A stretch of DNA of 64,000 nucleotides, from positions 1 through 64,000 of the forward strand of contig JAAUSZ010000002.1 in NCBI GenBank assembly GCA_012031875.1, in the 5' to 3' direction. Shown here piece after piece: positions 5,534-41,636 of the stretch (positions are counted from its first letter, which is position 1; every line of letters begins with the position of its first letter). This DNA is from Desulfobacula sp. (GTDB lineage Bacteria > Desulfobacterota > Desulfobacteria > Desulfobacterales > Desulfobacteraceae). Position numbers and translations under genes: made by a program. The notes under the pieces are model-generated. The model saw only the letters and a list, made by a program, of their open reading frames with translations, searched no databases and was not told the DNA's origin.

Positions 5534-6937
5534 ATGGCAGGAGCGGAAAAAGCAAAAATACTGGTCATTGATGATGATGAAGGGGTTGTCCACACCCTTT
5601 CCCGGATCATTGAAAGCCTCGGGTTTGAGGTGGATCATGCCCTGACCCTGGCCGCGGGCATGGGAAAAATCAATGCCCTGGATGTGGATCTGGTTCTTTT
5701 GGATGTGAATCTTCCCGACGGCAGCGGCCTTGATGTCATAGGGGAGGTTTCGGCCATGCCCGACGCGCCCCAGGTGATTATCCTGACGGCCTATTCAGAT
5801 CCGGACGGGGCTGAACTGGCCATTGAGAGCGGGGCCTGGGATTATATCCAGAAGCCGGCCTCGCCCAAGGCCATTAAACTCCAGATTTTAAGGGCCATGG
5901 AATACCGGGAGCAGAAAAGGCGGTCAGCGCCCCCCCTTTTTCTGAAATCCCATGCCATTATCGGATCCAGCAAGGTCCTCCAGGATTGTCTGAAAAAAGT
6001 GGCCAGGATAGCCGGAACCGATGCCCACGTTCTTCTGACCGGGGAAACGGGAACGGGAAAAGAGATTTTTGCCAAGGCCATCCATGAAAACAGCGCCCGG
6101 TCCAAGGGCAGTTTCATTGTGGTGGATTGCAGCATATTGTCGGAAAATTTTATCGAAAGCGTGCTTTTCGGCCATGAGAAAGGCGCGTTCACCGGGGCCG
6201 ACCGGAAAAGAAGCGGACTGGCCCTCCTGGCCAACGGCGGAACCCTCTTCCTGGACGAGGTGGGGGAATTGCCCGAATCCATCCAGGGCTCTTTTTTAAG
6301 GGTGCTTCAGGAAAAAAAATTCAGGCCTGTGGGCAGTGAAGAGGAAATCCACAGCGATTTCCGGGTCATCTCCGCCACCAACAAGAATATCGAACAGATG
6401 GTCCTGGACCGTCAATTCCGGAGCGATCTCTTGTACCGCTTGAAATCCTTTTCCCTGGAATTGCCGCCTTTGAGGCACCGGAAAGGGGATATCGGCGAGA
6501 TCGCCTCCCATTATGCCGAAATCTTCTGCCGGCAGCAGAAAACCGATTTAAAGGAATTGTCCGACGATTTCATGGAGACCCTGGAGAAATATGACTGGCC
6601 CGGTAATGTCAGGGAACTGGTCAATACCATGGAAACCTGCATTGCCTCCACCCCGTCGGAAAAAATTCTTTTTGCCTATCATCTGCCCTCAAAAATCCGG
6701 GCCAGGGTCACCCGGGCTTCCTTTACGAAAAGTCCCCCGGAAAAGGAAGCCCTGCCTCCCCTGTCAGACCTCCATCAGCCCCTTCCGAGCTTCCGGCAGG
6801 CCATGGCGGAAAGGGAAAGGCAATATCTCTCGGCTCTCTATGCCCGGACCGGCGGGGAGATCGAAGCCATGTGCAGGATGTCGGGCATATCCCGGGCCGT
6901 CCTGTACCGGAAATTAAAAACCCTTTCCCTTTCCTGA
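5534..6937 (+). CDS. Sigma54-dependent NtrC-family response regulator (REC-AAA-Fis HTH)
   Basis: REC ([20 protein letters not shown]), [23 protein letters not shown] (GAFTGA), [11 protein letters not shown]-terminal HTH. Confidence 0.95.
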
Positions 6938-6963
6938 GAACCCCTGCAAAACCGTATCAATTC

Positions 6964-6987
6964 AGAGACTTGTCTCTAAAACGAGAC
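6964..6987. promoter_or_regulatory. Candidate activator-binding site (GAGAC-TT-GTCTC-TAAAAC-GAGAC), flanked by direct repeats CCGTATCAATTC at 6952-6963 and 6993-7004
   Basis: AGAGACTTGTCTCT palindrome plus third half-site; located about 145 bp upstream of a sigma54-like -24/-12 element. Confidence 0.5.
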
Positions 6988-7102
6988 AAAGGCCGTATCA
7001 ATTCCGGGATTTTCTTTTCAGCCGGAATGGCCCTGCCCATCCCTGCCAAAAATATCCTATTGATATTATTATAAAAATTAAAGCGCCTGCCTGGTTTTCC
7101 CC

Positions 7103-7119
7103 CAGGCACGCAATTTGTA
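7103..7119 (+). promoter_or_regulatory. Candidate sigma54 (RpoN) promoter
   Basis: cAGGCACG-CAAT-TTGTA, close to YTGGCACG-N4-TTGCW with two mismatches; GG/GT spacing 12. Confidence 0.45.
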
Positions 7120-7171
7120 ATACCCTTTTTGAGCAATATTTCAGCATTCAACATTATATAAGTGAAACAAG

Positions 7172-7591
7172 ATGAAAGAAAAACCCGGAATCAGATTTAT
7201 ATTTTTTTCTGCACAAGAGGGACAGCAGTATGAAAAGATTCTTGGATTTGCAAAGAGATTGTTCCTTCCGGCCCAGATCAGCATCCATTCAAAGCCCAAG
7301 TCCTTTTCAAAGGCTGTCCTGGAACCGGGCTTTGATCACCGGATCATCCTGATCCTGGCCGCCTCTCCCGGCGATCTGGCCCGGATCCTTTCTCTCCGGA
7401 ATCTTCTGGAAAATCGCTCCGTGATCCTTATCCTGCCGGATTCGGAGGAAGACACCATGACCCAGGCCCTATCCCTTTATCCCCGGTATATCGATTATGT
7501 CCAGAATGATCTGAAGGATGTTTATCCGGTTCTGAAAAAAATGGTTGAAAAGCTTTACGGGCAGACAGACGAAGAGAAAAAATCCCGTTAA
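7172..7591 (+). CDS. Conserved-looking protein of unknown function upstream of cheW (possible receiver-like fold)
   Basis: 139 aa ORF after candidate sigma54 promoter; alternating beta/alpha pattern; no clear phospho-acceptor motif. Confidence 0.6.
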   Translation: MKEKPGIRFIFFSAQEGQQYEKILGFAKRLFLPAQISIHSKPKSFSKAVLEPGFDHRIILILAASPGDLARILSLRNLLENRSVILILPDSEEDTMTQALSLYPRYIDYVQNDLKDVYPVLKKMVEKLYGQTDEEKKSR

Positions 7592-7616
7592 TAATTTATC
7601 AAGGAGGAAAAGAAAA

Positions 7617-8129
7617 ATGGCAGATGAACTGAAAACCATGGCCCAGGCCATCAAGGCCACGACCATCAAGACCGGCAAGTATCTGACCTTTTCGCTGGAA
7701 AAGGAGGAATACGGGATCGGTATCCTCAAGGTCAAGGAAATCATCGGCATGATGCCCATCACCTCAGTCCCCCGGACCCCGGCCTTTGTAAAAGGCGTGG
7801 TGAACCTTCGGGGCAAGGTCATCCCGGTCCTGGATCTGAGAACCAAATTTGAGATGGAAGCCATTCCCTATACGGAAAGAACCTGTATCATCGTGGTGGA
7901 AATTGATTCCGAGGCCGCCACCATCCTCATCGGCATCGTGGTGGATTCCGTGTCCGAGGTCCTGAACATCCGGGAAGAAGAGATCGAAGAAACTCCTAAA
8001 TTCGGGACCAAACTGAAACACGATTATATCCTGGGCATGGCCAAACGGGACGGCGGGGTCAAGATCCTGCTCAATATCGACCGGGTCCTGTCCGGCGAAG
8101 AAATTACGGAAATCGAGCAAGCGTCATAA
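7617..8129 (+). CDS. cheW: Chemotaxis protein CheW
   Basis: [53 protein letters not shown]. Confidence 0.95.
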
Positions 8130-8160: not shown

Positions 8161-9981
8161 ATGAAAAGTTTAAGTCTGGGAATGAAGATTTCTTTGGGAT
8201 TCGCCTGCCTCATCATCATTGCCTGCGCCCTTGGCCTCATGTCCATCTTCCGCATGGGCGGGGTGGAGGTGGAGAGCAAGATGCTGGCGAACGAATACGT
8301 GCCTGAGGTGGAAGTGGCCAATGAGATCCGGGGCGGGGTCAACCGGATGATGTATGAGATGCGGGGATACGGGTATACCAGGGATGAAAAATTCTTCCAG
8401 AATGCCCAGAAGGAAATCGAAGGCTTAGAGGGCTCCCTTGAAAAGGCCAGGAAACTGGAGGCGGCTTCCCCCAATCTGAAGGCCCTGAAAGGCCAGCTCG
8501 AAAAAGCCACCAAGTCCTTCATCGACTATAAGGCGATTTCCCAGCAGACCAAGGCCAGCATTTTGAAAATGGATGAGGAAATGAAGGCCATGACCGCTGC
8601 CGCCGAAACCTATATGAAAAACAGCATGGACTTTCTGGAAACCCAGGAGGAAGCCTTGAAAAAAGTCATCAAGGAAAGCAATGACATGGGCAAGCGCGAA
8701 GAGATGATGGAGCGGGTTGCCAAGGTCTCCATGCTCAATGAGGTCATTTCCCTGGGGACCCAGGCCAGGATGGGGAATTTCCGGTCCCAGGCCCTGCGCA
8801 GCCCGGAAATCATGAAGGAGGCCATGCAGCTTTTTCCCAAAATTGATGAAAAGCTCAATGAAATCCAGAAAATCACCCATGCCGCAGCCAACCTGAAACA
8901 GATCGACGAGATCCGGAAGGCCGGAAACCAATATAAGGCCAGTATGACGGATTTCCTGGAGGCCTGGCTGGAAAATGAGGCCGTTGCCACAAAGCGCCGT
9001 GAAATCGGGACCCAGATGGTTGCGGTGGCCAAGGAAACCGCGGACGCCGGGGCCGAGGCTGCGGATCGGATCGCTAAGGACGCCGTGTCCGCCCTTTCCA
9101 CGGCATCCACCGTCATGATCGTAGGTCTTATTGCGGCCCTGATCATCGGGGTTCTTTTGGCGGTGTTTATCACCCGGAGCATCACCGGACCGGTGAACCG
9201 GATCATTGCAGGCCTCAACGAAGGGGCGGGCCAGGTGGCCTCGGCCTCGGGCCAGGTATCCTCCTCCAGCCAGTCCATGGCCGAAGGGGCGTCCGAGCAG
9301 GCCGCGTCCATTGAAGAGACCTCATCCTCCATGGAAGAAATGAGTTCCATGACCAAGCGGAATGCCGAAAACGCGGGGAACGCGGACGGGCTCATGAGGG
9401 AGGCCAACCACGTGGTGACCACGGCCAATGCCTCCATGGGCCAGTTGACCGAGTCCATGCGGGAAATTTCCAAGGCCAGCGAAGAAACCTCCAAGATCAT
9501 TAAAACCATAGATGAAATCGCCTTCCAGACCAATCTTCTGGCCTTGAACGCCGCGGTTGAAGCGGCCCGGGCCGGAGAAGCCGGGGCCGGGTTCGCTGTC
9601 GTCGCGGATGAGGTAAGAAACCTGGCCATGCGGGCTGCCACCGCGGCCAAAGACACGGCCCAGCTCATTGAGGGCACGGTGAAAAAAGTCACAGACGGAT
9701 CCAGTCTGGTATCCACCACCAATGAGGCCTTTACGAAGGTGGCGGAGAGTTCGGGCAAGGTGGGCTCACTGGTGGCGGAAATCGCCCAGGCCTCCAAGGA
9801 ACAGTCCGACGGCATTGACCAGGTGAATATTGCCATTGCCCAGATGGACAAGGTGGTCCAGCAGAATGCGGCCAATGCCGAAGAATCCGCATCCGCGGCC
9901 GAAGAAATGAGCGCCCAGGCCGAACAGTTGAAGGAATTTGTGGATGAGCTGGTCATGCTGGTGACGGGCAAAAAAAAATGA
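8161..9981 (+). CDS. Methyl-accepting chemotaxis protein (MCP 1)
   Basis: N-terminal TM + helical sensor + TM; hairpin tip [38 protein letters not shown]; a conserved-looking C-terminal tail lies out of frame downstream to 10153 (see findings). Confidence 0.95.
9223..9966 (+). repeat. MCP signalling-domain duplication, copy 1 (copy 2 at about 11215-11958)
   Basis: Long stretches of near-identical nucleotide sequence between the two adjacent mcp genes. Confidence 0.85.
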
Positions 9982-10162: not shown

Positions 10163-11997
10163 ATGATGTTGCAACGTATAAAACTGGGAACCCGCTTGGT
10201 TCTGGGATTTCTGGCGGTGGCCTTGATCACCCTGGTATTGGGAGTCATCGGATATTACGGGGCAGTGAAAGGTGAAAAATCGGTGCAGGAGATCGGGGCG
10301 GTCAGGCTGCCCGGGATCAACAGCCTCCTTACGATCAAGGGGGAGGCTGAAAAAATCCGGGGGAGCCTGAGGACCCTGGCCATCCCCGGATTAACCGGGG
10401 AGTTGAGGGAGCGCCAGTACAAAAACCTGGCCGAATCCAGGAAAGCCTATGAAGAATCCTGGAAGGACTATGAGAGCCTTCCCCGGAGCCCGGAAGAAGC
10501 AGAGGCCTGGAAAGATTTTGTCCCGGCCTGGGGTATTTTGAAGACGGAAAACAGTAAGCTCGTGGACATCATGCGGCAATGGGACCAGACCGGGATCAGC
10601 GATCCCACGGCCCTGGGCCGCCGGATCGAGTCCTTTACCAAGGATCATTACCAGCGGGTCCAGCAGGTCCTGACCCTCATGAGCATGAACAGGATGTTTG
10701 AGGGCGGCGAAGACCATACCGCGTGCGCGGCGGGAAAATGGATGGCTTCTTTTAAGAGCGACAACCCGGCCATCATGGCCGATATCAAGGCCATGCAGGG
10801 CCCCCACCAGAGGTTCCATGAGGCGATTGGGAAGATTAAGAAGGCCTATGAAAAAGCCGGCGGCGAAGAACAGTTGATTTACACCACGGAAATGGTTCCG
10901 GCCATGGAGCAGGTATTCCGGTATTTTTCCTCCATTACCCGGATCATCGGCGAGGGCATCCTGCTCTCGGACCAGGCCAGGGAGCAGTTGCTGGGGCCCA
11001 TGACCGAGGCCCAGAGAACCGCGCTGGGCCTTCTGGATAAGATGGTCGAGGTCAGCCGGGCCGCGGCCCTTGAAGAAGTGAGGTCCGCCGTGTTCCAATC
11101 GGGATTTCTCAGGGTGTTCTCGGCGGGTGCAGCCGTTGCCGGGGTGGCGCTGGCCATGGGCCTGGGGATTCTCATCGCCCGGGGCGTCAGCCGGACCCTG
11201 ACCGGATCTCCGGGGGCATGGGCGAAGGGGCGAACCAGGTGGCTTCGGCCTCGGCCCAGGTGTCTTCGGCCGGCCAGTCCATGGCCGAAGGGGCGTCCGA
11301 GCAGGCTGCGTCCATTGAAGAGACCTCGTCCTCCATGGAAGAAATGGCCTCCATGACCAGGCGGAATGCCGAAAACGCGGGGAACGCGGACGGGCTCATG
11401 AGGGAGGCCAACCAGGGGGTGACCACGGCCAATGCCGCCATGGGCCGGTTGACCGAGTCCATGCGGGAAATTTCCAAGGCGGGTGAAGAAACCTCCAGGA
11501 TCATCAAAACCATAGATGAAATCGCCTTCCAGACCAACCTTCTGGCCTTGAACGCCGCGGTTGAAGCGGCCCGGGCCGGGGAGGCCGGGGCCGGGTTCGC
11601 CGTCGTCGCGGATGAGGTGAGAAACCTGGCCATGCGGGCTGCGGCTGCGGCCGGAGACACGGCCCGGCTCATCGAGGGGATGGTGAAAAAGGTCACCGAC
11701 GGGTCCGGTCTGGTGTCCACCACCAGTGAGGCCTTTGGCAAAGTCGCGGAAAGCACGGGCAAGGCGGGCGCCCTGGTGACGGAAATCGCCCAGGCCTCCA
11801 GGGAACAGTCCGGCGGTATTGACCAGGTGAATATTGCCATGGCCCAGATGGACAAGGTGGTCCAGCAGAATGCGGCCAATGCCGAAGAATCCGCGTCCGC
11901 GGCCGAAGAAATGAGCGCCCAGGCCGAACAGTTGAAGGAATTTGTGGACGAGCTGGTCATGCTGGTAACGGGCCGGAGAACCGGTAAAGATTTTTAA
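10163..11997 (+). CDS. Methyl-accepting chemotaxis protein (MCP 2) with periplasmic CZB-like motif; frameshifted near 11205
   Basis: ORF 10163-11356 (sensor) continues in another frame as 11218-11997 (signalling domain); 13-nt deletion relative to MCP 1. Confidence 0.88.
11215..11958 (+). repeat. MCP signalling-domain duplication, copy 2
   Basis: Near-identical to about 9223-9966, e.g. gaagaaatgagcgcccaggccgaacagttgaaggaatttgtgga. Confidence 0.85.
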
Positions 11998-12091: not shown

Positions 12092-14603
12092 ATGGCTTCT
12101 CAAGAGATGCACAATTTGATTGAAAAGCTGGCCTGCGATTTCATGATGGCGAATCCGGAAGAACCCGAAACCCTGTCCGGACTGTTGCCGGTATTAAAGC
12201 GGATTCATGACCAGTGCCGGGACCTGAAGCTGGAGCCCGAGGCCAAAAGCACCAAAAAGGCCAGGAAAATGATTAAGGGCCTGCTGGGCCGCCCTGATGA
12301 ACCTGAGGCAAGGATGACGGCCCTGGGGGATTTGATCACCTCCCTGTCCTTTTCCCTGAGGGAGGGGGAAGAACAAAAAGAAACGGCTGAAGAACCGGAG
12401 CCCCTGTCCCCGGCAGAGGGTCCGGACCCCGGGGAGGATGATTTCCAGGCCATTGAGGAAAGCCTTGAGACCTTTTCCTGTCTCATTAATTTTCTGTGTC
12501 CGGGAGAAATTCCCGACCTGGGCGCCCTGATCCGCCAACTGGATGTTCTGATAAAGGCTTCGGAAAATGACGGGCTTCGCACCTTTCATGAGGTGGCCCA
12601 CGCGTGCAGGCGCTATGTGGAAAACATGACCCTGGAAAATATCTGTCATGTCAAGCCCATTGAGGAAGGGGTCCTGCTGTTAAAATCCATCTTTTTCCAT
12701 CGCAAAAAGGAAAGGCCTTCCTTTTGATTATTCCGATATCCTGGAGCTTTTAACGGCCGGGTTTGAAACCGCGGGGACCCGCAAGGCAGAGGAGGCGGAG
12801 GAAAAGGTGGCCGGGCCCCTGCCCCAGGCCGGGCCCGAGAAGATATCCCTGGATGACATGGAGATCCTGGCGGATTTTGTTTCCGAGGCCTTTGAAAATC
12901 TGGAGACCATAGAGATCAAGCTCATCGACCTGGAACAGGACCCCGACAACAAGGATATCATCAATGATATCTTCCGGCCTTTTCATACCATCAAGGGGGT
13001 ATCCGGTTTCCTGTCCCTGACCAAGATCAATAAACTGTCCCATGCCACAGAAAATCTTTTGGACAGCGCCAGGAGCGGGGATTTCGCCATGAACCGCACG
13101 GCCATTGACGCCATCCTTGAATCCGTGGATGTCCTCAAGGCCCTCATCGAAAGGGTCAGGGACGGCTACCAGACCGGGTTTCTCCAGCCCGATGACGACA
13201 TTGACACAGAGGCCCTGAGAAAGAAATTTCAGCGCCTCCAGTCCTCCCCGGCCCATGGGGAAAACGAACTCCTGGGGGAAATCCTGGTCCGGGAAAAGGC
13301 TGTGGACCGGGAGAGCATCGAAAAAGCCCTGGAAATCCAGAAAGAATTTCCGGATAAAAAAATCGGGGAAATCCTGGTGGAAGCGAAAAAGGCTGATCCG
13401 GTCCGGGTTGCCTCGGCCCTGGCCGAGCAGAATTCCCTCCGGAACAAACCCGATACCCAGGTCAAGGTCAGCACCCAGAAACTGGACGATTTGGTGGATT
13501 TTGCCGGGGAACTGGTCATTGCCCAGGCCATGCTTCGCCAGAAAACCTCCCATGATCCGGCCTTAAACCAGAGCGTGGCCCATCTGGGCCAGATCGTCAC
13601 CAATATGCAGAATATCGCCATGTCCATGCGGATGATTCCCATCAAGGCCACCTTCATGAAAATGATCCGGCTGGTCCGGGATCTTTCCCGGAAGGTGGGA
13701 AAGGACGTGAACCTGTCCATGGCCGGAGAAGATACGGAGATCGACCGGAATGTGGTGGATGCCCTGTATGAACCCATGGTGCACATGATCCGGAATTCCC
13801 TGGACCACGGCATCGAGCCCGCAACGGAACGCAGGGCCAAGGGGAAGGCTTCCCAGGGCAATATCTTCCTTAGGGCCTATCACAAGGGCGGCCATATTAT
13901 TATTGAAATCGAAGACGACGGCCGGGGCCTGGACCGGGAGAAAATCCTTAAAAAAGCCGTGGACACGGGCCTTATCACGGGCCATGAGCAGATGACCGAC
14001 GCCCGGATTTATGACCTCATCATGGAACCGGGGTTTTCAACCGCGGAAAAAATCACCGATGTATCGGGCCGGGGCGTGGGCATGGATGTGGTCAAGGCCG
14101 GCATTGAAAAATTCAGGGGGCATCTGGCCATTGCTTCCAAAAAAGACAACGGCACCAAATTCACCATCAGTCTTCCCCTGACCCTGGCCATCATCGACGG
14201 CATGCTCATCCGGATTGAGACGGAAAAATACGTCATCCCCACCACAGCCGTGCAGAAAGCCTTTAAACCGGGGCCGGAGGATTATTTCACCGTGGAAGGC
14301 AAGGGCGAAATGGTCAAAGACAGGGGGAGCCTGATCCCCCTCATCCGGCTGACCGATATTTATCCGCGCGGCAGCGCAAAAAAGCCGGTCCAGGACTGCC
14401 TGGTGGTGGTGGTGGAATCCAAGGACGAAAAAAGGGCCCTTCTTATTGATGAGCTGCTCGGCAAGGATGAATACGTGATCAAAAGCCTCGGGTCCAGCCT
14501 TGAAAACATCAAGGGCATCGCGGGCGGGGCCATCCTGTCCGACGGCCGGGTGGGACTGATCCTGGATATCCACGGGATTTTTTCCATTGCCCAGGAAGGA
14601 TGA
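12092..14603 (+). CDS. cheA: Chemotaxis histidine kinase CheA with extended N-terminus; frameshifted near 12704-12708
   Basis: ORF 12047-12727 and CheA ORF 12807-14603 join as ...GVLLLKSIFFHRK/...PFDYSDILELLTAGFETAG...; FHTIKGVSGFL HPt, H-kinase dimerisation, MVHMIRNSLDHGIEP, CheW-like C-term. Confidence 0.88.
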
Positions 14604-14658: not shown

Positions 14659-15129
14659 ATGAAGCAGATTGTGGGCGTGGCAGACATGAAACTGAGCAAT
14701 AATCCGGCTGAGTCCGTGATCACCTATTCCCTGGGCTCCTGCATCGGGCTTGTGGTCTATGATCCGGCTGTCCGGGTGGGCGGAATCCTGCACTATATGC
14801 TGCCGGAATCTTCCATAGACAGGGACAAGGCCGTTGCAAGGCCCCTTATGTTTGCCGATACCGGTATCCCCATCCTGTTCAAGAGCGCCTATCAACTGGG
14901 CGCGGTCAAGTCCCGGATGCAGATCTATGTGGCCGGGGGCGCGGAAATCCTGGACCAGAAGGGATTTTTCAATATCGGCAAAAGAAATTACCTGGCCTTG
15001 AAAAAGATGTTTTTTAAAAACAATGTCCTCATCCACAGGCAGGATGTGGGCGGGAATATCAACCGCACCGTCAGACTTGAAATCGGGACCGGAGATATTT
15101 ATGTCAAGACCTCCGGCGGCCGGAGGTGA
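14659..15129 (+). CDS. cheD: Chemoreceptor glutamine deamidase CheD
   Basis: YSLGSCIGLVVYDPAVRVGGILHYMLPES. Confidence 0.95.
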   Translation: MKQIVGVADMKLSNNPAESVITYSLGSCIGLVVYDPAVRVGGILHYMLPESSIDRDKAVARPLMFADTGIPILFKSAYQLGAVKSRMQIYVAGGAEILDQKGFFNIGKRNYLALKKMFFKNNVLIHRQDVGGNINRTVRLEIGTGDIYVKTSGGRR

Positions 15130-15133
15130 AAAT

Positions 15134-15982
15134 ATGATTGCCCTTCAGGCGCTTCTATCTGAAATCCGGAATCTGAAACCCATCCCTGCCGTGGCGAACC
15201 AGCTCCTGGCCCTGGTGGATGATCCCGGCAGTTCCATGGAAGATATCGCAGCGGTCATCCAGTATGATCCGGTCATGACGGCCAATGTCCTTCGGACCTG
15301 CAACTCAGCCTATTTCGGGCTCAAGCATCCCGCGGAATCCATTAAGGACGCCGTCAGTATGCTGGGTATGGACCAGGTCATCGAGCTGGTCCTGATCAAA
15401 TCCATGTCCGGCAGCCTGTCCGGCCGGCAGAACGGTTACGGCCTGGAAGAAGGGGAGATGTGGCGGTATTCCGTGTCCTCGGCCGTGATCGCCAGGCAGA
15501 TCGCGGCAAAGCTGGGCCTGGGCAATCAGAGTACGATTTTTACCGCCTGCCTGGTCAAGGATATCGGCAAGCTCATCCTGGAAAAATATGTGGCAAAGCA
15601 ACGGGATCAGATCCTGGCCCTGATGGAAGAAGAAGGCTTAAGTTTCCGGGAAGCAGAAAAACAGGCCCTGGGAATCGACCATGCCGAACTGGGGGCCATG
15701 ATCGCCAAAACCTGGAAATTCAGTCCCAGGATGGTGAAAATCATCCGGCACCACCATCTGGCCGACGAAACCATGATCAGGGACAGGGAGGTCGCGGTGG
15801 TGTACCTGGCCGATTGTATCGCCATGATGATCGGCATGGGGGTGGGCTCTGACGGGCTCGCCTACCGGTTCAGGGATGAGGCCGTGCGGGAACTGGGCCT
15901 TAATGCCGATGATACGGCGTTGATCATCGCGGATTTTGCCGGTCACATGCAGGAAATCGAAAATTTATTAAATATGGTTTAG
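15134..15982 (+). CDS. HDOD domain-containing protein
   Basis: IPAVANQLLALVDDPGSSMEDIAAVIQYDPVMTANVLRTCNSAYFG; HHHLADE. Confidence 0.92.
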   Translation: MIALQALLSEIRNLKPIPAVANQLLALVDDPGSSMEDIAAVIQYDPVMTANVLRTCNSAYFGLKHPAESIKDAVSMLGMDQVIELVLIKSMSGSLSGRQNGYGLEEGEMWRYSVSSAVIARQIAAKLGLGNQSTIFTACLVKDIGKLILEKYVAKQRDQILALMEEEGLSFREAEKQALGIDHAELGAMIAKTWKFSPRMVKIIRHHHLADETMIRDREVAVVYLADCIAMMIGMGVGSDGLAYRFRDEAVRELGLNADDTALIIADFAGHMQEIENLLNMV

Positions 15983-15998
15983 AACCAGGGGAAAACTC

Positions 15999-16424
15999 AT
16001 GTCATACTCAATACTCATTGTCGATGATTCCATGCCCATGCGGTCCGTCATAAAGAAAACCATCCGGGCCGCGGGGTATTCAAATTCCGAATTCCTGGAC
16101 GCGGCCAATGGAAAAGAAGCCCTGAACCTGATGAAAAACAACTGGGTGGACATGGTTCTGACCGACCATAACATGCCGGTCATGAACGGCCTGGATTTTA
16201 TCCGGGCCGTCAAGGCCGACGATCTTTTAAAGACCATTCCCATGGTGGTGATCACCACAGAGGGAAATGAACTCAGGATCAGGGAATTTATGGAATGCGG
16301 CGCCGCGGGCTACCTTGCAAAACCTTTTGCGGCAGAGGATATCAGGGATTTAATAGTGAAATTTCTCGGGGAGGCAAGCTATGATGAAGACGATTCTGAC
16401 GGCAATGAAAACCTCGATTTCTGA
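15999..16424 (+). CDS. CheY-like response regulator
   Basis: SILIVDDSMPMRSVIKKT; VLTDHNMPVMNGLDFI; LAKPF. Confidence 0.95.
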   Translation: MSYSILIVDDSMPMRSVIKKTIRAAGYSNSEFLDAANGKEALNLMKNNWVDMVLTDHNMPVMNGLDFIRAVKADDLLKTIPMVVITTEGNELRIREFMECGAAGYLAKPFAAEDIRDLIVKFLGEASYDEDDSDGNENLDF

Positions 16425-16830
16425 GGTCATGGAGACCATGTTTTTCCTGCCGGTCGAATTTTTGGAAAATCCGTCCCAAAAACAGATAAAGGCGCTTAAG
16501 GGAAGGCGGAACAAGGCCTGTTGCCTTGATTTTTCCGGGGAGTATTCCGGCAGTGTGTTTCTCCTGGTTCCTGAACCCCTTCTCCTGGAAATGGCTGAGA
16601 ATTTCATGGGGGAGGCAGGGGAGTCCCTGGGGCTTGAACTTCTGGAAGGCACCCTGACGGAAACCGTGAATATGGTGGCCGGCAACGCCCTGAGAAAGGT
16701 CAAGGCCGGGATCCCGTTTGAACTGAGTATCCCCAGGCTGATCCCGGGACCGGAATTTCCCGAAACCGGGGAAACCCTGATCATTAACACCCCGGGGCCG
16801 GAAATGGCCGTTCACATCGCTCTCCGGTGA
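16381..16830 (+). CDS. CheX/CheC-like chemotaxis phosphatase family protein
   Basis: 149 aa; ETVNMVAGNALRKV matches the CheX ExxNxxxG helix; sits between cheY and cheB. Confidence 0.75.
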   Translation: MMKTILTAMKTSISEVMETMFFLPVEFLENPSQKQIKALKGRRNKACCLDFSGEYSGSVFLLVPEPLLLEMAENFMGEAGESLGLELLEGTLTETVNMVAGNALRKVKAGIPFELSIPRLIPGPEFPETGETLIINTPGPEMAVHIALR

Positions 16831-19666
<2,836 letters not shown>

Positions 19667-21256: not shown

Positions 21257-23794
21257 ATGTCTTGGCTGGTCCCGTCGATTACCGCCACAATGGTTGGAAC
21301 TGCAATCCTTGCGGCCTGTTATCTTTATGTCTATTCCCTGGATCGCCAACCCTATCTGAAGGTATGGGCCATAAGCTGGGCTGTTTATTTTATCCGGTAT
21401 GCACTCCTGCTGGTGATGCCGGCCCGGCAGAAAAGTCCCTTTCTGCTCATCGGCAACCAGCTTGCATGTCTTTTAAGCGGGATTCTGCTCCTGTACGGGT
21501 CCTATCTGTTCATAGGTAAAAAATTCCCCCGGATCTTTCTCTATTTATCCGTGCCGGGCGCCCTGTGGATTTTTATCAGCATTTTGAACCGGTATTCCTT
21601 TCTGGCCATGTCCCTGCCGACCTTTGGGTTTCTGGCCTATATCTATATATGGACAGGCGTGATTTTCATAAAAGCCTTCCCGTCGGAAAAAAAAGAAGCT
21701 GCGGTTGTGGGGGCGGGATTCATTGTCTGGGGGATTCATAAGGCAGGGTATCCCTTTCTCCAGCCCGTGGTCTGGTTTGCCCCTGGGGTATCTTTTTCCG
21801 CATTTATCGAATTTGTCGTGGCCCTGGGCCTGCTTCTGGTTTATTTCCGGAAACCAGGAATGATTTACAGGCCAGCAATGAAAAATTCCGGGCGGCCTTT
21901 TTTACAAGCCCGGATTCCATCAACCTCAACAGACTCGAGGATGGAAGGTATATAGAGATAAACGAGGGCTTTACAAAGATCATGGGGTATTCCCGGAAAG
22001 ACGTGATGGGGAAATCTTCTCTGGACTTTAATATCTGGAATAATCCGGAAGACAGGAACCGTCTGGTTTCCGGGCTGAAAAAATCCGGGGTGGTGGAGAA
22101 CCTGGAAGCGGATTTTCTCGGAAAAGACGGACAAATCAGAACCGGCCTCATGTCGGCCCGGATACTGAAAACCGGAGACGAAAGCCTTATTCTTTCCATC
22201 ACCCGGGACATCACGGACAGAAAACGGATGGAAGCGGATCACAAACGGTTGCTGACCGCCATTGAACAGGTCGCCGAGGGCATTATCATCACCGACGTGA
22301 ACGGCATCATTGAATATGTGAACCCGTCCTTTGAAACGCTTACCGGCTATTCCCACGAGGAATTCATGGGGCAGACCCCGAGGATCCTGAAAAGCGGGGA
22401 GCAGGATGCGTCCTTTTACCGCCGCATGTGGGAGACCATCACCTCCGGGGCCACCTGGAACGGCCGGATCATCAATAAAAAAAGGACGGTTCTTTTTATA
22501 CGGAAGACACCACCATTTCTCCGGTCTTTGACCCCTCCGGCAAAATCATCAATTTTGTGGCGGTGAAACGGGATGTCACCCATGATCTCAGGATAGAGGA
22601 AAAGCTGAGGCAGTCCCAGAAGATGGAGGCCATCGGCACCCTGGCCGGCGGGATCGCCCATGATTTTAATAATATTCTTTTCCCCATTGTGGGCCATACC
22701 GAAATGCTCATGGAGGATATTCCCGAAGACGGCCCCGTCCGGAGCAGCCTGGCCGAGATTTATGCCGGGGCCTTGAGGGCCAGGGATCTGGTCCATCAGA
22801 TCCTGGCCTTTGCCCGGCAGGAGAAAAATGAGGCCAAACTCATGAAGATGCAGCCCATTATCAAAGAGGCCCTGAAGCTGATAAGGTCCACCATCCCCAC
22901 CACCATTTCCATGCGCCAGAACCTCCAGGCCGACTGCGGGGCCGTAACGGCAGACCCGACGCAAATCCACCAGATCATCATGAACCTGGCCACCAATGCG
23001 TACCACGCCATGGAAAAGACCGGCGGGGAACTCTTTGTCGGCTTAAAAGAAATCCGGCTGGGCCGGGAGGACCGCTTCAGCCCGGACCTGACCCCCGGAA
23101 CCTTTGCCTGCCTCACCGTGGCCGATACCGGCGAGGGCATGAATAAGGAGGTCATGGAAAAAATTTTTGACCCGTTTTTTACCACCAAGGAAAACGGGAA
23201 AGGAACCGGGATGGGCTTGTCCGTGGTTCACGGGATAGTCTCGGGCATGAACGGCGCGGTCCAGGTCTATAGCGAGCCCGGAAAAGGGACGGAATTCCAT
23301 GTCTACCTGCCCACGGCCGGGACCCTTTCGGAAAACCGGGAGCAAAGGGCGGCCGAACCCATACCGGGCGGCAAAGAACGCATCCTCCTGGTGGATGATG
23401 AAAAAGCCATCATCACCATGGAACAACAGAAGCTGGAACGGTTGGGGTACCGGGTGGCGTCCCGCACCAGCAGCCTTGAAGCCCTGGAAGCCTTTAAGGC
23501 CGGCCCGGACCGGTTCGATCTCGTGATCACGGACCTGGCCATGCCCGCCATGCCCGGGGACCGGCTGGCCGGGGAATTGCTCCGGATCCTCCGGACATCC
23601 CCATTCTCATCTGTACCGGATTCAGCGAGACCCTGACCGAGGAGACCATCAAAAGCCTCGGGATCAGGGGGCTTGTATTAAAACCGGTGATTGTCGCGGA
23701 CCTTGCCAAGAAAATACGGGAGGTCCTGGACGGAGAAAGAAACGATACGGCGATAGATAAAAGGATGACGGATGGCCCGAAAACCAACCTATGA
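21257..23794 (+). CDS. Membrane PAS-PAS hybrid histidine kinase with C-terminal REC, split by three frameshifts
   Basis: TM region (21257-), PAS (21982-22500), [30 protein letters not shown] + HATPase (22557-), REC whose end continues in another frame to 23794; junctions near 21851, 22477-22483, 23590. Confidence 0.85.
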
Positions 23795-26249: not shown

Positions 26250-29200
26250 GGCCCGGGGAAGATCTGTAACGCTTCACATTTTAAATGCCGGCAGGGGCCT
26301 TATAGGAATTATGACGGCTGTTCTGGTCTTGGTCGTTTTTTATCCATACCGAACCGGCCTCATCCGGGGACACCCTTCAGGAAGTCAAGGTGGGTGTCTA
26401 TGATTTCAAACCCTTATCCTTTCAGGATACGGATGGAAAGGCCAGGGGATTTTTCATCGACATCCTGGAGGATATGGCAAAAAAGGAAAAATGGTCGCTC
26501 ACCTATGTTTTCGGCGGTTTTAACCAATGCCTGTCCCGGTTGAAAAACGGAGACATCGACCTGATTGCAGGCATTGCCTATTCAGATGAACGGGCCACAG
26601 CCTTTGAGTTTACCCGGGAACACCTTTTTGTCATTTGGGGGGAAATTTACACGTCCCCCAAAAGCCCGGTCAAGACCATCCTGGATCTGGAAGGCAAAAG
26701 TATCGGCCTGGTGAAAGGGGCCCTGGTCAACAATGAGCTGAAAACCCTTCTGGAAGGCTTCGGAATATCGGCCCGGTTCCAGGAATATGAAGACTATGAA
26801 GCGGTTTTGCAGTCTTTGGATGCTTCTGCCGCCGATGCCGGGGTATTCACCAATCTCTATGGCTCCCGGTTTCTCGGCGCCCATCCCGTGGCCCGGACCC
26901 AGATTTTCTTTGCCCCCACCCCATTGCGGTTTGCCGCCGGAAAGAACACCGGTTCAAACCCGATTTCAGGAATTGCCGCCGTGGAAACCCTGGACCGTTA
27001 TTTTTCCGGATACCGGGCAGACGTCCATTCGGTTTACCACCGAGCCTATGATTTGTGGATAGAGCCGGCAGGCATGCCCGTGCCTGTCCCAAAAGTATTC
27101 ATGCCAACCTGGGCCTATGGATTATTTTTTGCCCTCGCGGTTCTTTCTCTTCTTTTGATGGGGTTTAACCGGCTGTCAAAACGGCGGGTAAACATCAAAA
27201 CCCGTGAATTGAAACAAAGCCGTGACCTGCTCCGGATTCAGACAACGGCCCTGCGGACCGGCGAAGCCGCCTTGAAAAGGCAGGCCTATTTTCTGCAAAA
27301 AGCCCAGGAGATTGGATGTATCGGGACCTGGGAACTGGATATCCGGAAAAATGAACTGACCTGGACCCAAGAGAATTATAAGATTTTCGGGCTGTCCCCG
27401 GGAACGCCGCTTACCTATGAAACCTTTCTGAACTGTGTCCACCCCGATGACAGAGCGTATGTGGACCGGAAATGGAAGGCGGCATTTCTCAAGAAACCCT
27501 ATGATATCGAGCACCGGCTGATGGTGGACGGCAGGGTGAAATGGGTGAGGGAAAAGGCGGAGCTTGAATTCAACGAGGCGGATGAATGTGTCCGGGGGAT
27601 CGGGTTTACCCAGGATATTACCGAGCGCAAAATTTCGGAGATCCAGGTCCGGGAGGCCGTTGACCGGTTTAAAAAAGTATTTGACAGCCAGTTTGATGCG
27701 ATTTTCGTGTTGACCGCGGACGTCCCGGCCATGGTCCTGGAGTGTAACCAGGCCGCCGTTGATATTTTCGGTTATGCTCCCTCGGACCTGATCGGGAAGC
27801 CGGTGGACCAACTGCATGTGGACAGGTCCCATCTGGAGCGGTTCCAGATCCAATTGCATTCATCGATTCAACAGCAAGGCTATCTCAAGCAGTTTGAATT
27901 TTCAATGAAGCGAAAGGACGGTGCTATTTTCCCTTCGGAGCACACGGTGGTGGAAATGAAAGCGGATTCCGGCGAGCGGACCGGCTGGATCAGTATGGTC
28001 CGGGATCTTTCGCATATCAAAAAGACGGAATCGGCCCTCATCGAGAGCGAGCGCATCCACCGCGCCCTGATCCAAAGCCTGCCCGACGTGGTGATGCGTT
28101 TTGACCGGGAAGGGCGGCATCTGTTTGTCTCTGAAAACGTCGGCCGGGTGGTGGATCTTCAGGCGGAAGACTTCATCGGCAAGACCCATCGGGAACTGGG
28201 ATTTCCCGAGAAGCAGTGCAGGTTCTGGGAAGAGACCATCCAGAAGGTGTTTGACAGCGGTACCCCCCTTGAGACGGAATTCATGTTTGAGGGAAAATCA
28301 GGGCCTGCAATCCACAACTGGCGTCTTGTGCCCGAAGGGCAACGGCCGGAAAAGATTGAGTCCGTTCTGTCGCTCAGCCGTGATATCACCGGCCAGCGCC
28401 GGGCAGAGCGGAATTACAGGACATTATTTCAGGAAATGCTGGACGGTTTTGCCCTGCACGAGATCCTCTGCAACCCGGCCGGAGAGCCGGTGGACTATCG
28501 CTTTCTATCCGTCAACCCGGCCTTTGAGCGGATGACCGGCCTCAGGGCGGAAGAAATTGCAGGCCGGACGGTCCTGGAGGTTCTGCCCGGCACCGAGCCC
28601 CACTGGATTCAGACTTACGGCAAGGTTGCCCTTACCGGAGAACCGGTATTGTTCGAAAACTATTCTGCTGATTTGAACAAGTATTTTGAGGTGAGGGCCT
28701 TTCAGCCTTTCTCCAATCAATTTGCCTGCATTTTTCAGGACATTACCGCGCGCAAACACGCGGAAGCAGAGCAGACAAACCTCCAGGACCGGCTGAACCA
28801 GGCCCAGAAGATGGAATCCATCGGCACCCTGGCCGGCGGTATTGCCCATGATTTTAACAATATCCTGTTTCCCATTGTGGGCCATACCGAGATGCTGATG
28901 GAGGATATTCCGGACAACGGCCCCATCCGCGACAGCCTGAATGAGATCTATGCCGGCGCCCTGCGGGCCAGGGATCTGGTGCATCAGATCCTTTCCTTTT
29001 CCCGGCAGGGAAAGACGGAATTGCAGATGATGAAGATTCAGCCCATCGTTAAAGAGGCCCTGAAACTGATTCGATCCACCATCCCAGCCGGCATCGCCAT
29101 GGTTCAGGACATCCAACCCGGCTGCGGTGCGGTTACGGCGGATCCCACCCAGATCCACCAGATCGTCATGAACCTGGCCACCAATGCCTACCATGCCATG

Positions 29201-29935
29201 GAAGAGAGCGGCGGGGAACTGAAGGTCAGTCTCGCACAAATTCAATGGGACCGGCCGGACCCGGCCTATCCGGATATGGCCCCCGGGCCCTATGCCTGTT
29301 TGAGTGTGGCCGATACCGGCCCGGGAATTCCCCGGGAAATCCGGGATCGGATCTTTGAGCCGTTTTTTACCACCAAGGAAAAGGGAAAAGGAACGGGAAT
29401 GGGACTGTCCGTGGTTCACGGGATTGTGAAGGCCATGAACGGGGCGGTTCAGGTGTTGAGTGAGCCGGGGCGGGGGACTGAATTCCGGATTTATCTGCCG
29501 GTGGTCGGCAAGGATGCTGAAAAAAAAGAATCGCTGACGCGTGAAGCCCTGCCGGGCGGATCGGAAAAGGTGCTGCTGGTGGATGATGAGGAAGCCATCA
29601 TTGCCATGGAACGGCAGATGCTGGAGCGCCTCGGCTATGAGGTCACCCCCTGTTCCGGCAGCATGGAAGCTCTGGAAATTTTTAAGGCTCATCCGGACCA
29701 ATTTGACATAGTCATTTCAGACATGGCCATGCCCAACCTGTCCGGCGATAAACTGGCCGCCGAATTGACCTGCATCCGCCCGTCCATTCCGGTCCTTTTG
29801 TGTACCGGATTCAGCGAAACCCTGACCGAAGATCGAATAGAATCCCTGGGCATCAGGGGCCTGGTATTAAAACCGGTCATCATGAAGGACCTGGCCTTGA
29901 AAATACGGGAAGTCCTGGGGAAGGGGAGGGGATAG
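26239..29935 (+). CDS. SBP_bac_3 (periplasmic binding)-TM-multi-PAS hybrid histidine kinase with REC; frameshift in T6 tract 26336-26341
   Basis: Signal-peptide segment in frame of ORF 26107-26403 joins ORF 26390-29935 by removing one [32 protein letters not shown]-terminal REC. Confidence 0.92.
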
Positions 29936-38160: not shown

Positions 38161-40791
38161 CGCGCCGGCTGTTTTTTTCTTTTTTTGAGCATGTCGCTGA
38201 TCTTCAATAACAGGCTGTCCTGGTCCACATCCCCTTTCTGCACAAGCTGCTGGATATGATTGGCGCTGAGTCGCCTGAAATCCTCCGGCGTCAGGTCCTT
38301 GGCCGTGAGGATCAGGACCGGGATGGCTTTTGTGGCCGATCGGCTTCGGATTTTTTCAAGGACTTCAAAGCCGTCCATGCCCGGCATCATCAGATCCAGG
38401 ACAATGCCGTCGGGAATGGTGCGGGAGACGTATTCAAAGGCTTCCCGCCCGCCGCGGGTCACATCCACAATGTACCCGGCCCTTTCCAGGACCGACCGGA
38501 TCTGAATGATGGCGGCCTCGTTGTCTTCCACCAGGAGAATCCGGGGCTCGGCAGGGAAGATATCCCGGCCTGCCGCAGCCTCGGAGAGTTCTTCCCTGAA
38601 AGGGCAGGGTCCGGACAGGGAAGTTGCCGCTTCAGGGTGTCCGGTATGGGCCGGACCACCGGTCAGGGCCCCCTGCCAGGCAAGGGGCAGGGTCAGGGTA
38701 AAGGCGGAGCCCTTGCCCAGGGTACTGGCCGCGGTGATGTCTCCGCCCAGCATCCGGGCTGCATGCCGGGCAATGGCCAGCCCCAGCCCCGTGCCCTCAT
38801 ACCGTCTGGATGAAGAGCCGTCCACCTGTCTGAATTCATCAAAAATAGCGGGAAGATCTTTTTTCGCAATCCCGATCCCGGTGTCTGAGACCCGGATGGA
38901 GATTTTTTCCCCCTCCCTGGCGGCCGAGATGGTCACATTCCCCTGGTCTGTAAATTTAACGGCATTGGCCGTCAGGTTTTGCAGGATCTGGGCCACCCGG
39001 ATCTCATCACTTTCGAGCAACGGAAGATCAGCAGGGATTTCCCGGCGGATCTCAATGTTTTTTCCTGGCCAGGGGCTCAATGCTTTCCACAATATTTCCC
39101 AGGGTCAGGACAAGAGAAAAGGATTTCGGGTGGACATCCATCCTGCCGGCCTCGATTTTGGAGAGGTCCAGAATATCGTTGATCAGGGCCAGCAGATTTT
39201 TTCCGTTGCGTTCAATGATGGCCAGATAATTGACCTCCTCATCACTGAGTTTTGCCCCGGCCTGCATCATCAGGACCCGGGAAAGGGCCATGACGGAATT
39301 GAGGGGGGTCCGCAGCTCATGGCTCATATTGGAAAGGAACTGGCTTTTCAGGCGGCTGGCCTCTTCCACAGTCAGCCGCTGCTGCTCCAGTTCCACATTC
39401 TGGGCCTGCAATTCTTCCGATTGTTTCAGCAATTCTTCTGCCTGGGCCTGCAATTCTTCCTGCTGGGCCTGGAGTTCCTGGTTGCTGTCCCGGAGTTTTT
39501 CGGCCAGTTGCCGGGTCCTGTCATTGGCCAGGAGGTTGGCAAAGACCGTATGGACCAGGGTGGCCCAGGGCTGGTTCAGAATGGCCAGGGCCTTTTCGGA
39601 ATAGGGCCGGATGCTTGCCAGGGAGGCGACGGCCGGCACGGTACCTTCAATCACAATGGGAAAATGGAGGATCTCCCTGGGCTTGAGGGCGCCGGTGAAG
39701 GTTTTAAAATGGAAGGTCGTGTCATTGGGGATGTCTCTCAGGCAGGTTATTTTTTTTGTGGCCAGGACGCTTGCCAGTTCACCTTCCCGGGCGGCCGCAT
39801 CAAAGGAGGACAGGCGTTTCGGGTCAACGCCCATGGAATAGGCAGGTTCATAGACCTTATCCGTCCGGTTCAGGAGAAAATAGACCCCCATCTGGGAATC
39901 GGTGATGTCGGCCAGTTTCTCCAGGAGAGTTTTTCTGAAGGCGGAAAGATCATTGGCTCGAAGAAAGGAATCGGATATTTTTTCGTTGATATCCCGTATT
40001 TCCATCTGGGAAGCAATGGCCTGAGCCATCCGGTTGAAGGAACCCGAGAGAACCCCGAACTCATTGGCGGAGACATACCGGCTGCGGGCCTGAAGATTGC
40101 CTTTCCGGAATTCTTCCGTCACTGCGGTCAGTTCCTTGAGGGGCCGCCTGATCCATGAATACAGAAAATAACCGATCCCGGCCGTCAAAAGGATAATGAA
40201 AATGACCATAAGGGCGAGCCGGAGCTTGAGGGAATTGTGTTTCAGGGTGGCATCCTGAAAGAATCGGTCTCCCCTGACTTTAGAAAAATCGCTGATTTCC
40301 CTGATATGTTCCATGGCATTTTTCGCGTGGGTGCCGTCGGCTCCGGATGCTGCCGTTCGGTGCATGGCCTCTTCGGCTCTGCCCTCCCGGAACAGCCGGA
40401 GGGTTTCCTCTCTTGTGGTTTTCCACTGCACAAAGGCATGATAGGCCTTTTCCACATCTTCCCCGGGGCCCAGATACCGGTCAAACACCGTGTCAAACTG
40501 CCGGCGGGCGTCGGCTTCAAAGATGTCCATTTCCCGGAAGAGCCTTTGCCGGTCTTCTTCATCTTGTGTCAGGAAGAGATCTTTCATGTCCCGCTGGATG
40601 GCCAGGATATCGGCCTTGATTTCGCCGACGGCCCTTCTGACTGTGAGCGGATGATCATAAAGCCCCCGGGTTTCCTCCCACAAAAGGCCGGTCTGGATCC
40701 AGGCCATGGCGCCCAGGAGGGCGGTCAGCACCAGGATGATGCTCAGGGCGGTTTTCAGTTGGGTGTCGATCCTAAGATCTTTGAATGTCAT
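38152..40791 (-). CDS. 4HB/HAMP-GAF hybrid histidine kinase with REC; frameshift in T6 tract 39058-39063, probable second indel near the stop
   Basis: TM-sensor-TM, HAMP, GAF, coiled coil, FLSNMSHELRTPLNSVMALS H-box; ORF 38043-39092 supplies HATPase and REC; stop TGA at 38152 with one added base in an A7 run. Confidence 0.87.
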
Positions 40792-41636
40792 GGGGCTTCT
40801 CCTGTTTTTTCCTGTAGATGGGGCCAAACTCCATGATCCGGCTGAAAGAATGCTGATATTTCAGGGTCGGGGCTTCCGCATCCCCTAAGATGAGAATGCC
40901 GTTGGGTGCAAGGGCGTGATGCAGCTTGGCAAAGAGGGTGTCCTGGTAGTCGGTATTGAAATAGATCAAAAGGTTCCGGCAGAGCACCAGATCGAAATTT
41001 CCGAAGATGCTTTCCGGAGGGACCATATGTTTTTGTCCAGCATGTCATAGAGAGAGAAGGCGACCTGGTCCCGGATTTCCGGGACCAGCCAAAAGCAGTC
41101 TCCGGCCGGTGTAAAATACCGGTTCAGGAGCCTGTATTTGATATTTTCGATGCTGGAGAGGGGGTAGGCGGCCTTTTTAGCGCCTTCCAGAATTTTTGCA
41201 TCAATGTCCGTGGCAAACATGTGCAGGTTCATCATGAGTCCTTCCTTGCGGAGCAGTTCATGAATCAGGATGGCCACGGAATAGGGTTCCTCGCCCATGG
41301 CGCATCCCGCGGACCAGATCCGGAGGGAAGGGTCCCGCCGGCGGCCTTTTCCAGGACCAGGGCCGGAAGAATCCGGTCGGCCAGGAGTTCAAAGGTCAAG
41401 GTATCCCGGAAAAACCGGCTCACATTGATGGTGATCACGTCCAGGAGGCGGTCTATTTCAGCCGGATTGTCTTTGACATGGATGAGGTAGTCCTTGAAAT
41501 CCTTGCCGTTTAGAGCCGTCACCCGGTTTCCGATGCGGCGGGCCAGCATGGCCGGATGATACCCGGAAAAATCAAAGCCCCTTTTTTCCATCAGGTAATC
41601 AAGGATGGATTTGAGGCTGCTAGGGATTTCCGGCAT
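40772..41636 (-). CDS. cheR: Chemotaxis protein methyltransferase CheR, split by two frameshifts
   Basis: ORFs 41265-41636, 40966-41298 and 40772-41026 join as ...VSRFFRDTLTFELL...IWSAGCAMGEEPYSVAIL...FDLVLCRNLLIYFN...; junctions at 41334-41336 and 41030-41034. Confidence 0.9.

Follow-up and report, generated by a model that had tools for sequence, protein, structure and literature searches.

The enhancer-activator-sigma-54 switch is of a textbook type. Activators of the NtrC family, such as NtrC and AtoC, have the domain order, the GAFTGA motif and the arrangement of enhancer, IHF and sigma-54 in common with the regulator described here (positions 5534-6937), but its operator differs from theirs. 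In the sigma-54 regulome of Desulfovibrio vulgaris Hildenborough, which includes two chemotaxis operons, -24/-12 boxes (consensus tGGcacg and tTGCt) are likewise accompanied by upstream activator sites, whereas some chemotaxis-linked promoters of that species lack a predicted activator site and the -12 consensus tTGCt differs from the TTGTA found here (PMC4641369). CrdA of Myxococcus xanthus, which is under joint control of CrdS and Che3, is another NtrC-like activator of sigma-54 with links to both a histidine kinase and a chemosensory system; it is described as controlling developmental genes (PMC3510030), whereas the evidence given below points to control of the chemosensory (che) operon itself. 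The type of switch is known, but a literature search conducted mostly without subscription journals turned up no description of the apparent pairing of this regulator with a che operon, which recurs among sulfate reducers and related organisms. Such a pairing would link the chemosensory systems of Desulfobacterota to sigma-54 signalling.

The regulator gene and the adjoining che operon

The window analysed is a stretch of 64,000 nt on contig C31 of an assembly of 4.95 Mb (357 contigs), and the genome-wide tests were pattern searches over this assembly. As judged from sequence, the region at 6952-7171 is very probably the control region of the che operon, driven by the adjacent regulator, IHF and sigma-54. 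The genes concerned are as follows:

5534-6937, plus strand: enhancer-binding response regulator, the likely activator (Pfam Response_reg, Sigma54_activat and HTH_8)
7172-7591, plus strand: 139-aa receiver-fold protein, first operon gene (predicted structure)
7545-8129, plus strand: CheW (domain search)
8161-9981, plus strand: chemoreceptor with an MCP signalling domain and a weak 4HB match (domain search)
12807-14603, plus strand: CheA with Hpt, dimerisation, HATPase and CheW domains (domain search)
14659-17907, plus strand: CheD, HDOD protein, CheY, CheX and CheB, the presumed remainder of the operon (domain search and synteny)

The regulator consists of a receiver domain (Asp57), an AAA+ domain with Walker A at residue 170 and GAFTGA at 217, and a Fis-type HTH, so that the acceptor Asp, the AAA+ domain with GAFTGA and the HTH of NtrC-type response-regulator activators were all found. 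It is none of NtrC, AtoC, ZraR or FlgR, because its scores fell well short of the NCBIfam equivalog cut-offs for the families shown. Its closest named relatives come from two MAGs, one of Desulfobacula and one of Desulfobacterales, and are 81-82% identical, and the regulator of Desulfospira joergensenii shows 58% identity. The stop codon of the regulator gene is separated by 234 bp from the gene at 7172, after which the order is the 139-aa protein, CheW, chemoreceptors, CheA, CheD, HDOD protein, CheY, CheX and CheB. When the 7172 protein was searched over 86 genomes of the family and loci with the same regulator gene directly upstream were collected, the order of regulator, 7172-like gene, CheW and chemoreceptor was found across the family, with gaps of 145-400 bp between regulator and che operon in 34 related loci.

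The product of the first operon gene had no match in Pfam or NCBIfam. Its AlphaFold2 model is a receiver-like domain (pLDDT 90, pTM 0.84), and the best Foldseek matches were weak and mostly receiver domains (best E 7e-4, TM about 0.6). Because strand 3 of the model ends in LILAAS, without the acceptor Asp, we infer that this product is a pseudo-receiver.

Two further observations concern genes within the operon. The chemoreceptor at 10163-11997 consists of two overlapping frames, one for the 4HB part and one for the signalling part; since the region is a single frame in G016, this split is a frameshift here, either real or from assembly. In CheA, residues 156-208, located between the Hpt and dimerisation domains, scored 40.1 bits (cut-off 38) with NF053729, a model of the MshE-type c-di-GMP-binding motif, and a strict text pattern, which is a weak test, gave 0 matches to this motif in relatives.

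The -24/-12 element and the IHF-like site

Two elements lie between the enhancer and the operon:

7104-7119, plus strand: sigma-54 -24/-12 element AGGCACG-CAAT-TTGTA (consensus, 34-locus conservation and matrix)
7053-7065, minus strand: IHF-like site TATCAATAGGATA, 8/9 to WATCARNNNNTTR, centred 59 bp ahead of the -12 box

The original prediction had named AGGCACG-CAAT-TTGTA as a near-consensus element, and this sequence is indeed present at 7104-7119. The GG at -24, the G at -12 and the spacing fit this description. The -12 box reads TTGTA instead of TTGC and so matches the general consensus only weakly; in addition, the -24 box has A in place of its first T. TTGTA, though weak by this general measure, is the usual -12 form among the related loci, for which the consensus is TGGCACgCAAtTTGTAaTA.

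Because the generic -24/-12 pattern was not enriched in the 64-kb window (77 found versus 88 expected), the case for a promoter rests on conservation. A -24/-12 element was found in 34/34 gaps (9-11 of 12 letters, mean 10.0; dinucleotide shuffles average 3.3), although these loci are not independent, being related and including paralogs. The -12 box is located 38-94 bp ahead of the annotated start in 33 of them and just 5 bp ahead in G067, probably because the start of the latter was misassigned. Among 13 extra loci outside the scored set, 11 contained a match of 9-11 letters at 32-67 bp ahead of the start, and two (G003 and G044) had no such match. With a matrix built from the 33 other loci, this genome left out, positions 7100-7123 scored 24.4 bits, compared with 12.4 bits for the next best position in the 64 kb, and the extended box GGCAYRCAAWTTGTANTA has a single exact match in the assembly. 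The genome contains a single rpoN gene (one PF00309 match, E 3e-16). The marks of a sigma-54 promoter, namely GG and G at fixed spacing, RpoN in the genome and upstream activator sites at looping distance, were all found, and the presence of a strongly conserved sigma-54 promoter within 6952-7171, with a predicted start near 7130, is largely supported. That the operon is instead driven by a sigma-70 promoter is highly improbable: one weak sigma-70-type match was detected at 7043-7072, but it comprises only 9/12 letters, and it is the -24/-12 box that all 34 loci have in common.

The A/T-rich segment that had been proposed as bendable is present at 7047-7080. Minus-strand sites resembling WATCARNNNNTTR, the IHF consensus taken from PMC7962754, were found in most loci near -47 or -60 from the -12 box, two positions about one helical turn apart. 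Their summed best score over the 34 loci was 273, compared with 250 +/- 3.3 in shuffles, and the site in this genome taken alone was not significant (p 0.21). Three HU/IHF-type genes are present in the genome, two of which best match IHF subunits at scores below the curated cut-offs. The proposed enhancer-IHF-sigma-54 layout is supported by the 34-locus conservation, the single rpoN and the gene linkage.

The operators and the regulator predicted to bind them

Three putative operators, with no strand assigned, follow the regulator gene:

6953-6970: operator 1, CGTATCAATTCAGAGACT, 9/12 to TGTCTC-N6-GAGACA, with an equally spaced counterpart in G016, G002 and G084
6971-6988: operator 2, TGTCTCTAAAACGAGACA, perfect palindrome, 12/12, inside the assembly's only perfect TTGTCTC-N6-GAGACAA
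6994-7011: operator 3, CGTATCAATTCCGGGATT, 7/12 here and 8-9/12 in G016, G002 and G084 (comparison)

The GAGAC-TT-GTCTC-TAAAAC-GAGAC half-sites at 6965-6987, on which the original prediction had based its enhancer, are confirmed. The CCGTATCAATTC repeats described as flanking them are also present, 41 bp apart (6952-6963 and 6993-7004, with no other mismatch-free copy in the window), but they are the left parts of the degenerate operator copies 1 and 3 and not separate elements. The distance to the promoter, put at about 145 bp, was approximate, as the centre of the best operator is 138 bp from the -12 box. An enhancer of three tandem 18-bp putative operators, two degenerate and one perfect, is supported: the assembly (4.95 Mb) contains a single mismatch-free TTGTCTC-N6-GAGACAA, at 6970-6989, and the spacings of 18 and 23 bp between operator starts are kept in related species. 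The triple operator with these spacings scored 26-28 of 36 in this genome (G000), G016, G002 and G084, compared with a shuffle mean of about 16, and was weaker in G017 and G060 (23 and 25 of 36); 0/1000 shuffles reached the triple-operator scores. In the wider family the operator takes the form TGTC-N10-GACA.

The palindromes after 6937, together with a GCCTGG/CCAGGC inverted repeat at 7080-7116, could also be taken for RNA hairpins of the regulator gene (terminators or attenuators), which would make the -24/-12 match incidental. TTGTCTC/GAGACAA could pair as a hairpin of 7 bp, and a 15-nt inverted repeat encloses the -24 box. However, neither repeat is followed by a T run, the GCCTGG arm is missing in relatives that keep the -24 box (G002, G016 and G084), and the operator copies hold their 18/23-bp spacing, which is not hairpin logic. 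As the terminator scan and Rfam also gave no support, terminator and riboswitch readings were rejected, and we give hairpins hardly any chance of being the explanation.

Elsewhere in the genome the operator pattern was not enriched (123 matches with up to 3 mismatches versus 162 for the reversed-pattern control), which argues for local control, and the idea of a genome-wide regulon defined by this operator was dropped. On contig C80, an operator-like and a -24/-12-like match, separated by about 87 bp and surrounded by apparent sugar-nucleotide biosynthesis genes, were dropped as a chance pair.

A second, paralogous module was observed in the same genome on contig C124 (L197, G000:C124, 1-1010), comprising the end of a regulator with a QSRLY recognition helix, a TTCCTGGAAACAGGAA operator, a -24/-12 box (TGGCACAGATTCTGCTGTAA) and a 7172-like gene. 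Among the loci compared, the QSRLY helix goes with a TTCCTG-N4-CAGGAA operator (5/5 QSRLY loci versus 0/30 others; Fisher p 3e-6, which is only a guide because the pattern was picked after several loci had been viewed and the loci are related by descent). The loci in which TTCCTG initially drew attention were G022, G025, G067 and G080, and the only held-out locus, the second module of this genome (G000b), had also been seen before the count. Several loci with other helices (G013a, G025c, G038, G055 and G001) had no clear operator.

The operator type tracks the regulator helix while its position stays the same, which speaks for the neighbouring regulator as the direct binder. Sigma-54 activators are very numerous in the class Desulfobacteria (PMC12316311), and some other regulator might in principle occupy the operators of this sigma-54 promoter; we consider this quite unlikely, as regulator and operon are linked in over 30 loci and the operator follows the recognition helix of the adjacent regulator. 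The gene linkage, the operators tracking the helix and the lack of enrichment elsewhere favour the original proposal that the adjacent regulator switches on the che operon, and support direct and local control by the 5534-6937 regulator, apparently insulated from the paralog.

From the elements, their conservation, the gene linkage and the helix-operator match, we infer the following course for control by the adjacent regulator. The phosphorylated regulator would bind the three 18-bp palindromic operators just past its own stop codon, and IHF, at its site near 7059, would bend the A/T-rich segment. By looping, the bound AAA+ regulator could then touch RNA polymerase-sigma-54 at 7104-7119, where ATP hydrolysis would open the promoter. 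Transcription would proceed from near 7130 through the pseudo-receiver gene, cheW, mcp, cheA, cheD, the HDOD gene, cheY, cheX and cheB. Control would stay local, the paralogous module having another recognition helix and another operator. More tentatively, the genome may hold paralogous che modules insulated from one another, with a separate sigma-54 activator, operator and operon for each and with helices and operators that have co-diverged, allowing independent switching and possibly feedback of CheA on its own activator. The locus offers a directly testable regulator-operator-promoter unit, and the paralogs form a natural series that allows changes in the helix to be compared directly with changes in the operator.

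Kinase input and other genes of the window

A hybrid histidine kinase gene precedes the regulator gene in about 50 other loci, in most of them by no more than about 200 bp, whereas the upstream neighbour here is a divergent GntR-type gene. Related hybrid kinases are encoded downstream in the window (22557-23636 and 26390-29935), and the PAS-type one at 26390-29935 is what the neighbouring kinase of the relatives best resembles. Because the GntR-type gene takes the place of the upstream kinase, the candidate phosphodonors are the downstream hybrid kinases or CheA. Phosphorylation of the regulator by the CheA of the operon, a feedback loop related to CrdA/Che3 of Myxococcus, would leave the promoter unchanged and refine the preferred reading. 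This seems possible but rather unlikely: CheA is encoded in the operon under control, the upstream neighbour is no histidine kinase gene and CrdA provides a precedent of joint control by CrdS and Che3, but the upstream hybrid kinase in about 50 loci and the related kinases in this window speak against it. The CrdA case shows that a single regulator of this kind can receive both types of input, kinase and chemosensory (PMC3510030).

The PocR-type hybrid histidine kinase after cheB was rejected as the counterpart of the relatives' kinase, whose best match in the window is the PAS-type kinase. A 550-aa ORF at 38506-40158 matched nothing in Pfam or NCBIfam at the cut-offs applied. A CheR-like gene on the minus strand (40847-41334) is present in two separate pieces and is possibly disrupted. 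The PocR-type kinase gene itself (17904-19666) consists of two overlapping ORFs with the break within the HATPase domain, an apparent frameshift.
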